Source: Bacteroidota bacterium
GTDB taxonomy: Bacteria; Bacteroidota; Bacteroidia; Flavobacteriales; Weeksellaceae
DNA: 5,261 bases
Reading direction: 5' to 3'
NCBI GenBank assembly: GCA_023399675.1
Contig: JAEWOM010000108.1
Span: forward strand, 1 to 5,261
This document shows positions 1,455 to 5,261 of this stretch, one piece after another. Below the pieces are notes generated by a model. It made no database searches, was not told the DNA's origin, and saw nothing but the letters and a program-made list of their open reading frames with translations. Positions within the stretch are counted from its first letter, which is position 1; every line of letters begins with the position of its first letter. Position numbers and translations under genes: made by a program.

Positions 1455-3611
1455 ATGAGGAAGTTATTTTTTATATGGATGTGCTTATGCGCTGTGATTT
1501 TCGTTGATGCGCAGACAAATGAGAACATCAAAATTCCCGCTAATCCCAAAATAGGGCTTTCTCTTTCCGGAGGCGGTGCAAAGGGCTTTGCGCATATTGG
1601 AGTGCTGAAAGTGCTGGATTCTATTGGTGTTAAAATCGATTATATTTCAGGAACAAGTATGGGTGCTATCGTTGGCGGCCTATACGCATCCGGCTATACA
1701 GCTAAAGATATTGAACAGATTGTGCTGGAAACCGATTTCTACACATTAATACAAAACGAAAAAACGAGGGAAGAAGCGAGTTTCTTCGATAAATCTACCG
1801 ACAAATACATTCTGAATATTCCGATTAAGAATAAAAAAATCAACGTGTTGCCAAAGGCGATCAGTACCGGACAGAAAAACGTGTACATGCTGAAGGAACT
1901 GTTCAAAAATGTAGCAGGAATTGAAGATTTTTCTAAACTGCCGATTCCATTTATGTGCGTGGCAACCAATCTGGAAACCGGTAAAATGGAAATTTTCGAG
2001 AAAGGTGATCTGGTAAAATCGATTATGGCGAGCTCCGCGTTTCCTTCGCTGATGGATCCTGTAAAGATCGGGGAAAGTTTATACATCGACGGTGCGATGA
2101 CGCTGAATTATCCATCAAAACCTCTGAAAGACAAAGGAATTGATTTCGTAATTGGTGTGGATTTAAGTCAGGGACTGGCATCCAGAGAACAACTGCTTTC
2201 ACTGATTGATATCCTAAATCAGGTAATCGATTTCGGAATTCAAAAAGAGACAGCAAATCAGTACAGATATACAGATCTCAACATCAAACCGGAACTCACA
2301 GGCCTCACCGCAACGAGCTATGGTGAAAAGGAAAGAATCGTGCTTTCCGGCGAAACAGAAGCCACGAAATATATACCGGTTTTCGAACGGTTACCGAAAC
2401 GTAAAATACCCGCATTACGCGCTGCAATCAATCCTATTTTTTCCAATGTTTATAAGATCGACAGTCTTGATCTGGTAAACAGTGAAATTTATACAGAGAA
2501 TTATGTTCGGGGTAAAATGAATTTGCGCGTACCATCAATGCATACGTACGGAAGCATTAATAAAATGGTTGATAAACTCTACGCAACCAACAACTATTCG
2601 TTCATTACATACGATATCGTACAGCAGAACGACGGAACCATCTTGAAATTAAATGTTACCGAAGACAATAGCCGATATTTCCTCAAACTCGGGCTTCATT
2701 ATGATGAAATTTTTAAAACAGGACTGCTTCTCAACGCAACAGTTAAGCGCCTGTTATTCCGAAACTCGACCATTTCACTTGACGGTGTAATCGGCGATAA
2801 ACCACGCTATTATTTCAATTATTTCATAGACAACGGATATTTGCCGGGCTTCGGTATTTATGCTTCAGGAATGAAGCTGGATTTACGCGACAGTGATGCG
2901 AGAATTACCGATACCTGGTTCTGGTTGAGGAATGAGGCATACCTGCAGAGTATCTGGAAGGATAAATATGCAATTGGTGGTGGTCTTAGCCACGATTACT
3001 ACGAAAGTGAACGGGATCTGTTCCGGGTAAAAAACTCGTTTAACCCGTATATTTTTGTAAAAAGTGATACGCAGGACGACCGTACCTTCCCGACAAAAGG
3101 TTTCTATCTGGACTCGGAAGCAAAGTTGCTCGATATATTCAATGATGAGGTCGCTGAAAAAGCAATTCAGGTAAAAGCAAATCTATCCTTCAACACCTCA
3201 TTCGCCAAAATATTTACCTACCGATTAAGACTGTTCGCCGGTTTTTCTTTTGGTCAGGATATTTCTCCTTACTACAAATTCAGACCGGGTGCAATTTTCG
3301 AACAGCGTCTCGGTAATTTTGTTCGTTTTCCGGGTCTGCACTTCGGAGAACAGTCTACTGATAACCTGCTAAAGGCATCTCATGACGTTTTAGTGAAGGT
3401 CCGGAAGAATATTTTTGTAATCGGAAGTTTCAATATGCTCAATCAGTTTGATGAAGCGACCTCGGAACAGATTCTCCGGATTTCCCAGATGTCGGCCGGT
3501 ATATCTGCTGCATACAAATCACCAGTCGGACAAATAAAGGTAAATTACTCTAAAGCTTTTGACAGCAACAACAACGGTATCTTCAGTGTGATTCTTGGAC
3601 ATTGGTTTTAA
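1455..3611 (+). CDS. Patatin-like phospholipase fused to POTRA and Omp85-type outer-membrane beta-barrel (PlpD-like, type Vd)
   Basis: This complete gene encodes 718 residues. The start ATG abuts the TAA of the murF-alr gene and opens a clear Sec signal peptide (MRK, then hydrophobic residues 4-17, likely cleavage after A19 before Q20), which fixes the start. Residues about 32-240 are a patatin domain: oxyanion loop GGGAKG at 39-44, nucleophile Ser68 in GTSMG (66-70), and catalytic Asp212 in the DGA motif. Both members of the Ser-Asp dyad are intact, so phospholipase A/lysophospholipase activity is expected from the family. Residues about 334-403 look like a single POTRA domain, and about 405-718 a beta-barrel of the BamA/FhaC type with alternating aromatic strands, a DDRTFPTKGF segment (541-550), and a C-terminal Phe (HWF) suited to BAM recognition. 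This order matches the PlpD/type Vd autotransporter family. The protein should sit in the outer membrane with the lipase either displayed or facing the periplasm; the substrate is unknown. No linker protease site is evident. Confidence 0.93.
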   Translation: MRKLFFIWMCLCAVIFVDAQTNENIKIPANPKIGLSLSGGGAKGFAHIGVLKVLDSIGVKIDYISGTSMGAIVGGLYASGYTAKDIEQIVLETDFYTLIQNEKTREEASFFDKSTDKYILNIPIKNKKINVLPKAISTGQKNVYMLKELFKNVAGIEDFSKLPIPFMCVATNLETGKMEIFEKGDLVKSIMASSAFPSLMDPVKIGESLYIDGAMTLNYPSKPLKDKGIDFVIGVDLSQGLASREQLLSLIDILNQVIDFGIQKETANQYRYTDLNIKPELTGLTATSYGEKERIVLSGETEATKYIPVFERLPKRKIPALRAAINPIFSNVYKIDSLDLVNSEIYTENYVRGKMNLRVPSMHTYGSINKMVDKLYATNNYSFITYDIVQQNDGTILKLNVTEDNSRYFLKLGLHYDEIFKTGLLLNATVKRLLFRNSTISLDGVIGDKPRYYFNYFIDNGYLPGFGIYASGMKLDLRDSDARITDTWFWLRNEAYLQSIWKDKYAIGGGLSHDYYESERDLFRVKNSFNPYIFVKSDTQDDRTFPTKGFYLDSEAKLLDIFNDEVAEKAIQVKANLSFNTSFAKIFTYRLRLFAGFSFGQDISPYYKFRPGAIFEQRLGNFVRFPGLHFGEQSTDNLLKASHDVLVKVRKNIFVIGSFNMLNQFDEATSEQILRISQMSAGISAAYKSPVGQIKVNYSKAFDSNNNGIFSVILGHWF

Positions 3612-3617
3612 ATTATT

Positions 3618-4025
3618 ATGATAAATTTCTTCGCCGAAAACGTCCCATCCCCTACCCTTTCAACCAGAGTTTCATCCTGGATTACTGAGATTATTCAAGA
3701 AGAAGGCAAGAAAGAAGGTGAAATCAATTACATTTTCTGTGATGATGAATACTTGCTGCAGGTAAACCGGGATTTCCTCAACCACGATTATTACACCGAT
3801 ATTATTACATTCGATTACGTTAAAGGCAAAATCATCAGCGGCGATATTTTCGTATCTTTGCAACGAATTCAGGAAAACGCCGAAGAATTGCAGTTCGCGA
3901 TGTCTTTTGAACTTTACAGAGTCCTGGCACACGGCATCTTACATTTATGCGGCTATCAGGACAAAACCCCTGAACAGCAACAGTTGATGAGAGAGAAAGA
4001 AGATTATTTTCTGGCAAAATTCTGA
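3618..4025 (+). CDS. ybeY: Endoribonuclease YbeY (rRNA maturation factor, UPF0054)
   Basis: This complete gene encodes 135 residues, close to the usual 140-155 and typical of short Bacteroidota forms. YbeY is a metal-dependent single-strand endoribonuclease that helps process the 3' end of 16S rRNA and takes part in ribosome quality control in the cytoplasm. Supporting blocks are TDIITFDY (60-67), GDIFVS (75-80) and the signature HGILHLCGYQDK (105-116), followed by an acidic C-terminal helix with MREKEDYFL. Two metal-ligand histidines are present (H105, H109). The third canonical one (HGxLHLxGYDH) is replaced by D115, which I recall as the Bacteroidota form. The segment that holds a conserved Arg in E. 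coli YbeY appears to read FLNHD here, so that Arg also seems absent. The ATG lies 6 bases after the patatin gene stop, in the same frame, with no Shine-Dalgarno, as usual for this phylum. Co-transcription with the upstream gene is likely. Confidence 0.95.
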   Translation: MINFFAENVPSPTLSTRVSSWITEIIQEEGKKEGEINYIFCDDEYLLQVNRDFLNHDYYTDIITFDYVKGKIISGDIFVSLQRIQENAEELQFAMSFELYRVLAHGILHLCGYQDKTPEQQQLMREKEDYFLAKF

Positions 4026-4038
4026 AGTTTTTTCTGAT

Positions 4039-4054
4039 TGTTTCACGTGAAACG
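4039..4054. other. parS-like centromere site (ParB-binding palindrome)
   Basis: The bases TGTTTCACGTGAAACG contain a perfect 14-base palindrome (4040-4053) around a CACGTG core. They match the well-known parS consensus TGTTTCACGTGAAACA at 15 of 16 positions, differing only in the last base. parS is bound by ParB (Spo0J), a CTP-dependent clamp that spreads on flanking DNA, recruits SMC and drives chromosome segregation with ParA. The site lies in the 43-base gap between ybeY and mnmG, 13 bases after the ybeY stop codon and 14 bases before the mnmG start. Such a long exact match is very unlikely by chance in one short gap. parA and parB are not in this window, so binding is inferred. Confidence 0.9.
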
Positions 4055-4068
4055 TAATACTCCTTTAC

Positions 4069-5261
4069 ATGATTAATGAAGTTTATGACGTAATAGTCGT
4101 AGGAGCAGGACATGCCGGATGCGAAGCTGCAGCAGCGGCTGCCAATCTCGGCTCAAAAACACTGCTGATTACGATGAATATGCAGACAATCGGGCAAATG
4201 AGCTGCAATCCGGCAATGGGCGGGATTGCAAAAGGCCAGATTGTACGAGAAATAGATGCGCTCGGTGGCTATTCCGGAATAATTGCAGATAAATCAGCAA
4301 TACAGTTCAAAATGCTGAATCTGTCGAAAGGACCGGCCATGTGGTCGCCACGAACACAGAATGACCGCATGCTGTTTGCCGAAGAATGGCGTCTGGCGCT
4401 TGAAAATACAGAAAATCTGGACTTTTACCAGGATATGGTGAAAGAACTGATTATTGAAAATAATGCTGTTCAGGGTGTAGTTACCTCACTCGGAATTAGA
4501 ATCAAGGGTAAGTCCGTCGTTCTTACCAATGGAACCTTTCTCAACGGATTAATTCACGTTGGTGAAAAACAACTGGGCGGCGGAAGAATGGGCGAACCAA
4601 AAGCGATGGGGATAACTGAACAGTTACAGTCTTTCGGTTTTGAAGCCGGCAGAATGAAAACCGGTACACCACCACGTGTTGACGGCAGGACACTGGATTA
4701 CAGCAAAATGGAGGAACAGAAAGGCGATGAAAATCCTAAGAAATTCTCTTTTTCCGAAACGCCTACTCTAACGGAACAGCGCAGCTGCCATATAACCTAT
4801 ACCAATGAAACAGTTCACGAAATTTTGCGGGAAGGATTCCACAGAAGTCCGATGTTTAACGGAACCATTCAAAGTTTAGGACCACGCTATTGCCCGAGCA
4901 TTGAGGATAAAATCAACCGATTTGCCGAACGAACCAGGCACCAGCTTTTTGTGGAACCAGAAGGTTGGAAAACCATTGAAATTTATGTCAATGGATTCAG
5001 TTCTTCGCTCCCTGAAGACGTACAGATGAAAGCCATGAAACACATTCCGGGTTTCGAAAACGTCAAAATATTCCGACCGGGATATGCTATTGAATACGAT
5101 TACTTCCCTCCTACCCAACTGAAACATACACTCGAAACCAAGATCATTGACGGGCTATATTTTGCAGGCCAAATCAACGGTACAACCGGTTACGAAGAAG
5201 CGGCAGGACAGGGAATTATTGCAGGAATCAATGCCCACAACAAAGTACATCAAAAGGAAGA
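4069..5261 (+). CDS. mnmG: tRNA uridine-5-carboxymethylaminomethyl(34) synthesis enzyme MnmG (GidA), 3'-truncated by window edge
   Basis: The frame opens with ATG at 4069 and stays open for 397 codons to the window edge; the family is usually about 620-630 residues, so roughly the last third is missing. MnmG is an FAD enzyme that, with the GTPase MnmE, installs the (carboxymethyl)aminomethyl group on wobble U34 of several tRNAs in the cytoplasm. Seen in order: Rossmann FAD loop GAGHAGCEA (12-20), the [14 protein letters not shown] block with functional Cys46, [15 protein letters not shown] (197-203), the first GidA signature [15 protein letters not shown] with Cys275, and the second signature [17 protein letters not shown] (366-382). 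Both conserved cysteines (E. coli 47 and 277 equivalents) are intact. The start is secure: an in-frame TGA at 4048-4050 lies within the parS palindrome, and this is the first ATG after it. No Shine-Dalgarno is visible. The gene may share the upstream transcript or use a promoter in or before the parS gap. Confidence 0.97.

Follow-up and report, generated by a model that had tools for sequence, protein, structure and literature searches.

The short non-coding gap between ybeY and mnmG in the DNA analyzed here (5,261 nucleotides, in the following referred to as the window) raises the question of which function the 16-bp palindrome located in it may have and what it reveals about the chromosomal position of the window. 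Four genes are encoded on the plus strand, namely the C-terminal part of a murF-alr fusion, a patatin phospholipase that carries a fused Omp85-type barrel (1455–3611), which lies 5' of ybeY in most relatives, ybeY (3618–4025; TIGR00043, 99.9 bits at a cut-off of 45) and mnmG, also designated gidA (4069–5259; TIGR00136, 607 bits at a cut-off of 525), which is truncated by the end of the window after 397 codons. Both profile matches confirm the gene calls ybeY and mnmG of the initial annotation, and the ybeY stop at 4025 and the mnmG ATG at 4069 delimit the 43-bp gap (4026–4068) in which that annotation had placed the site. A mechanically called minus-strand ORF of 92 amino acids (3835–4113) overlaps the site and is without support as a gene.

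The sequence TGTTTCACGTGAAACG occupies positions 4039–4054 of the plus strand, 14 bp 5' of the mnmG ATG, and differs from the palindromic 16-bp parS consensus TGTTTCACGTGAAACA in its last base only (A16G). Counting this single mismatch reproduced the previously claimed agreement at 15 of 16 bases, and the perfect 14-bp palindrome GTTTCACGTGAAAC, likewise claimed before, was read directly from bases 4040–4053. At up to three mismatches to the consensus, the site represents the sole match in the window, and 200 dinucleotide shuffles of the window yielded a mean of 0.02 such matches, with any match occurring in four of the 200. Judged by its sequence, the site is a canonical and ordinary parS in an informative place. 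Very probably it represents a chromosomal parS, namely one member of a predicted pair bracketing mnmG, where a ParB clamp would be pulled by ParA such that the origin region separates first.

Loci of relatives were gathered by a scan with the patatin protein of the window. In total, 55 loci were obtained, mostly carrying genus names of Weeksellaceae, with eight labelled only Flavobacteriaceae, Flavobacteriales or Bacteroidetes. Membership of the Weeksellaceae was checked for Kaistella, Epilithonimonas and Bergeyella, and Chryseobacterium, Halpernia, Soonwooa and Cruoricaptor were presumed to belong to this family as well. Sites with up to two mismatches were considered parS-like, and the pair was counted in 53 of the 55 loci, L027 and L050, from which mnmG is absent, having been dropped. 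An upstream site was found 9–64 bp before the mnmG ATG in 52 of these 53 loci (it is missing in L039) and a downstream site in all 53, located in an interval that reaches from 2 bp ahead of the end of the mnmG stop codon to 29 bp past it. The gaps between ybeY and mnmG mostly measure 34 to approximately 230 bp in the relatives, and their sequences diverge widely, except for the site and a repeat common to some of them. An alignment of this gap across related genomes had been proposed by the initial annotation, and retention of the site before mnmG in 52 of 53 loci, in a gap that has otherwise largely diverged, is in line with its view that the motif is under selection. In locus L036, a distance of 7 kb separates mnmG from ybeY, and both sites stay with mnmG; in L039, mnmG is detached from ybeY, the downstream site stays with mnmG and one match with two mismatches occurs elsewhere.

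Among the 105 sites of the relatives, positions 2–4, 6, 8, 9, 11 and 13–15 are invariant and substitutions are confined to the symmetric pairs 1/16, 5/12 and 7/10, as expected for the target of a homodimer. The mismatch of the window site affects position 16, which differs in nine of the 53 downstream but in none of the 52 upstream sites. Based on these loci, the window site is predicted to be the upstream half of the pair, and a second parS is predicted just past the mnmG stop codon of this organism, outside the window.

The distribution of the motif was further analyzed in 14 whole genomes chosen from the 55 relatives for long contigs and spread. At up to two mismatches, each of these genomes contains matches in two to four places, and matches with at most one mismatch comprise the mnmG pair, plus a third site in three of the 14 genomes; in Bergeyella cardium (G002), the second member of the pair carries two mismatches. 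The genome-wide scan suggested earlier hence revealed, in the relatives, matches at the mnmG pair and not scattered round the chromosome.

Moreover, the association with mnmG extends across the phylum. Sixty genomes were sampled from the phylum to which Chryseobacterium sp. Marseille-Q5410 (G001) belongs and were combined with G001 itself. Of these 61 genomes, 51 contain a site with at most one mismatch, compared to two of 61 for a reversed control pattern. Thirty of the 51 genomes were represented by parS-centred loci, in 28 of which mnmG adjoins the site; the two exceptions are L104, which is without mnmG, and L108, which contains only ybeY and lies near a contig edge. A second set comprised 30 mnmG-centred loci, one from each of the remaining 31 genomes except G030, including two loci shortened by contig ends and one, L220, with a misassigned frame. 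Of these loci, 27 carry a site at up to three mismatches, and 60 control palindromes with an identical half-site composition were found in a mean of 0.5 and at most three of the 30. Nine of the ten genomes without a match at one mismatch still possess a site at the mnmG locus at up to three mismatches. Sites occur on both sides of mnmG in five loci, only downstream in 16, only upstream in five and on neither side in three, and one locus features a site overlapping the mapped start in addition to a downstream site. Within 1.5 kb of mnmG, no site at up to three mismatches was detected in L197, L204 and L206; two of these three loci originate from genomes (G027 and G048) with matches at no more than one mismatch elsewhere. 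The gene ybeY was found beside the site in seven of the 30 parS-centred and three of the 30 mnmG-centred loci, as determined by tblastn with the YbeY of the window, which distant homologs may escape. These locus counts indicate that mnmG is the usual neighbor, with side and number of the sites depending on the lineage. Since relatives across the Bacteroidota usually keep such sites beside mnmG, the window site probably marks the chromosomal region that is replicated and segregated first.

In order to locate the replication origin relative to the sites, nucleotide skews were evaluated in four relatives. In G001, represented by a contig of 2.15 of approximately 2.7 Mb, the cumulative GC skew reaches its minimum (100–500 kb) at 278,230, and the sites are located at 284,279 and 286,206. 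In G002, for which the contig end was assumed to be joined to the start, the minimum lies at 36,141 and the sites at 43,078 and 44,996, so that the minima are 6–7 kb from the sites in both genomes. Third-codon skew, calculated in 20-kb bins, turns at approximately 300–320 kb in G001 and 60–80 kb in G002, i.e., some 15–40 kb off the sites, and the sampled skew turns back at approximately 1.7 Mb and 1.0 Mb, respectively, with a few stray samples, e.g., at 630 kb in G002. Third-codon skew was added because raw GC skew was insufficient alone in two further genomes: in G003, it features two near-equal lows at 240–260 and 410–430 kb, with the site at 359 kb, and in G005 it is lowest at 850–870 kb and shows no turn at the site (635 kb). 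Third-codon skew turns at 290–330 kb in G003 and at 600–650 kb in G005. Skew accordingly places the origin near the mnmG pair, with a clean signal in G001 and G002 and with a signal confined to third-codon skew in G003 and G005, which is the outcome that the GC-skew comparison proposed by the initial annotation produced in the relatives.

Where the distance could be measured, the gene dnaA is located far from this region. In G001, dnaA and parB reside at 1.25 and 1.33 Mb, and in G002 at 0.91 and 0.96 Mb, near the predicted terminus. Along the contig, dnaA is separated from the sites by 0.86 Mb in G002, 0.96 Mb in G001 and 1.08 Mb in G012; in the other 11 of the 14 genomes, dnaA and the sites are on separate contigs. 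The earlier proposal that a parS near the origin locates the window on the chromosome therefore held as far as proximity to the origin is concerned, as seen from the skews of four relatives, but not regarding dnaA as the origin marker: plotting the matches against dnaA would mislead, since the origin of the relatives is not at dnaA.

A candidate for the origin itself was recognized close to the pair, and the AT-rich gap upstream of pgk likely represents oriC in these relatives. In 39 of the 55 loci, pgk (minus strand) and rpiB (plus strand) are separated by 521–924 bp with a G+C content of 19–34%, and this gap begins 2.1–3.3 kb after the second parS-like site; among the other 16 loci, one or both genes could not be located in 14, and in two the genes are too far apart. 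An example is the gap at 16768–17406 of L006, to which 38 gaps are homologous. The DnaA box searched, TTATCCACA, was taken as a general consensus and may not be that of Weeksellaceae. In the 39 gaps (26,463 bases), which are related and not independent sequences, 128 DnaA-box-like 9-mers with up to one mismatch were counted, compared to an expectation of 9.3 derived from chain shuffles; for exact boxes, the count is 25 and the expectation 0.4. Furthermore, in an unaimed scan, the densest 400 bp within 400 kb of G001 start at 288,529, inside the pgk-rpiB gap, and those within 280 kb of G002 start at 48,068, just 5' of pgk, from which rpiB has moved away in this genome; the lead of these clusters amounts to four boxes versus three in their rivals. 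An origin at dnaA was rejected for the relatives examined, as dnaA lies 0.86–1.08 Mb from the sites in the three genomes with both on one contig and no box cluster was found in the 14 dnaA loci (18 boxes at up to one mismatch in 60,888 bases). An oriC inside the window is not supported either, with only three one-mismatch boxes and no exact one. The mnmG pair, the phylum-wide link to mnmG and an origin that probably lies at pgk rather than at dnaA thereby go beyond the initial annotation.

In bacterial chromosome segregation, ParB is loaded at parS, forms a closed CTP clamp and spreads, and the resulting complex is moved by ParA; loading of Smc-ScpAB is a further task of ParB in many bacteria. 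Presence of parB, another point that the initial annotation had marked for checking, was verified for the relatives, where TIGR00180 (ParB) exceeded its cut-off in 14 of 14 genomes. The ParB of G001 comprises ParB_N, HTH_ParB and ParB_C domains, a gene encoding a ParA-type ATPase is located upstream of it, and its best solved relative, likewise a ParB, matches residues 39–228 of 296. In genome G009, a second ParB-like protein (G009:C7:37648-38058; 68.8 bits) is over the cut-off and weaker than the main ParB; it shares a contig with the mnmG sites, approximately 33 kb off. Smc (TIGR02168, over the cut-off), ScpA, ScpB and DUF4194, which we take to be the MksE/JetB-type family, were each found in none of the 14 relatives' genomes by profile search, with weak and mostly short Smc matches in all 14; positive controls were found in 14 (Smc), nine (ScpA), eleven (ScpB) and one (DUF4194) of 14 named genomes. 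This result agrees with a passage of PMC10197239 according to which no known condensin was found in two gut Bacteroidetes. With Smc above the cut-off, ScpA and ScpB in none of the 14 genomes, ParB is expected to act via ParA and not via Smc loading, and it probably does work through ParA in these bacteria.

For the organism of the window, we infer that the second site, the ParB and the arrangement of the origin match those of its relatives and that ParB binds at the window site. ParB would load on this site as a CTP-dependent clamp and ParA would pull the ParB-loaded site, causing the freshly copied origin region to separate first, so that segregation would be driven by ParA without loading of Smc-ScpAB.

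Other roles of the palindrome have to be weighed against a centromeric one. Its position 9–64 bp before the mnmG ATG in 52 relatives would suit an operator by which a transcription factor, or ParB as a repressor, controls mnmG, but a second copy follows the mnmG stop codon in all 53 relatives, sites at up to three mismatches lie solely downstream of mnmG in 16 of 30 phylum loci, the sites are near the skew origin and the window sequence departs from the parS consensus in a single base; an operator in place of a centromere is consequently very unlikely. Binding of ParB might nevertheless influence mnmG expression as a by-product. The inverted repeat might also function at the RNA level and form a hairpin or a terminator in the ybeY-mnmG gap, since the 16 bases could, as read from the sequence, form a 6-bp stem with a 4-base loop. 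Such a structure needs no particular loop, yet the bases of the would-be loop, ACGT, are kept as well as those of the stem (C8 and G9 are present in all 105 sites, and A7 and T10 each in 103 of them), and near-identical sites flank mnmG on both sides, its neighbors varying across the phylum sample, which leaves this role with an even slighter probability than an operator. A coincidental match within a short AT-rich gap has nothing in its favor apart from the shortness of the site and is practically negligible given 0.02 matches expected per window at up to three mismatches and retention before mnmG in 52 of 53 relatives, though much of the gap has diverged. The reading as a chromosomal parS is therefore preferred.

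A binding site of the ParB relative Noc (NBS; consensus TATTTCCCGGGAAATA, recognized by a protein with Q173 and R201) was rejected as well. The NBS is a related 16-bp palindrome, as described in a passage of PMC7383237, but the window site features the parS core CACGTG, and the ParBs of all 14 relatives lack the Q and R of Noc and instead possess R173 and G201, which the same passage describes as absolutely conserved in ParB and tied to parS, not NBS. Using the numbering of the PMC7383237 motif, GERRxR, R173, N178, G201 and R204 were found in all 14 main ParBs, and residue 172 is E, D or Q in these proteins and S in Caulobacter. L036, L038 and L042 contain sites whose core reads CCCGTG or CACGGG, which is one step closer to the NBS; the matching ParBs might have a shifted specificity, and the ParB from the genome of L036 retains R173 and G201.

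The system resembles ParABS of Bacillus, Caulobacter and Pseudomonas in the 16-bp consensus, in few sites near the origin of the relatives, in ParB encoded by 14 of 14 relatives and in ParA upstream of parB in G001. Unlike in these organisms, parB and the sites are approximately 0.9–1.0 Mb apart in G001 and G002, and Smc above the cut-off, ScpA and ScpB were detected in none of the 14 relatives. Among the matches listed in the literature search, as judged from titles and the beginnings of abstracts, no paper dealt with parS at mnmG in Bacteroidota. A broad parS survey by Livny et al. 2007 reportedly exists and may already list these sites, and a first report is therefore not claimed. Parts of PMC10197239 describe Hi-C of parS clusters in gut bacteria, two Bacteroidetes included, and share with the present analysis the search for consensus parS at up to two mismatches, the origin deduced from parS and GC skew and dnaA as an unreliable origin marker, whereas its main text contains neither mnmG, gidA, Weeksellaceae nor Chryseobacterium. 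Furthermore, a passage of PMC2099444, citing Ogasawara and Yoshikawa 1992, places gidA (mnmG) among genes tending to the vicinity of the origin; in contrast to this ancestral origin cluster, the sites stay with mnmG, and dnaA and parB are far off in the two relatives measured.

For most of the phylum, somewhat better than even chances are given to a centromere anchored at mnmG, with sites that turn over and switch sides, an adjacent oriC that in Weeksellaceae lies 5' of pgk and at a great distance from dnaA and parAB, and, lacking Smc-ScpAB, a ParB that works with ParA alone or loads an unrecognised condensin. The order parS-mnmG-parS, followed by pgk in Weeksellaceae, would give Bacteroidota, for which dnaA seems to be a poor guide, an origin landmark, which would aid orientation of assemblies and estimation of growth rates from coverage. 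It would also define an exact locus at which to study chromosome organisation by ParB and parS without Smc-ScpAB, a question that PMC10197239 did not answer.

Two additional sequence elements were observed near the pair. The third site, TGTTTTACGTGAAACA or its complement, is present at G004:C1:335320, G005:C2:647168 and G012:C1:1324353, all of which are Epilithonimonas, and is located 9–10 kb past the second pair member, beyond the proposed oriC. Moreover, a repeat-like element of 78–142 bp, starting near GAGCTATTTCCCGCT and ending near ATCGGGGCTA, occurs 3' of ybeY in many Chryseobacterium and Epilithonimonas loci (L009, L012, L015, L018, L020, L028, L032 and others); in the 13 loci caught by the pattern, it ends 14–65 bp before the parS site.
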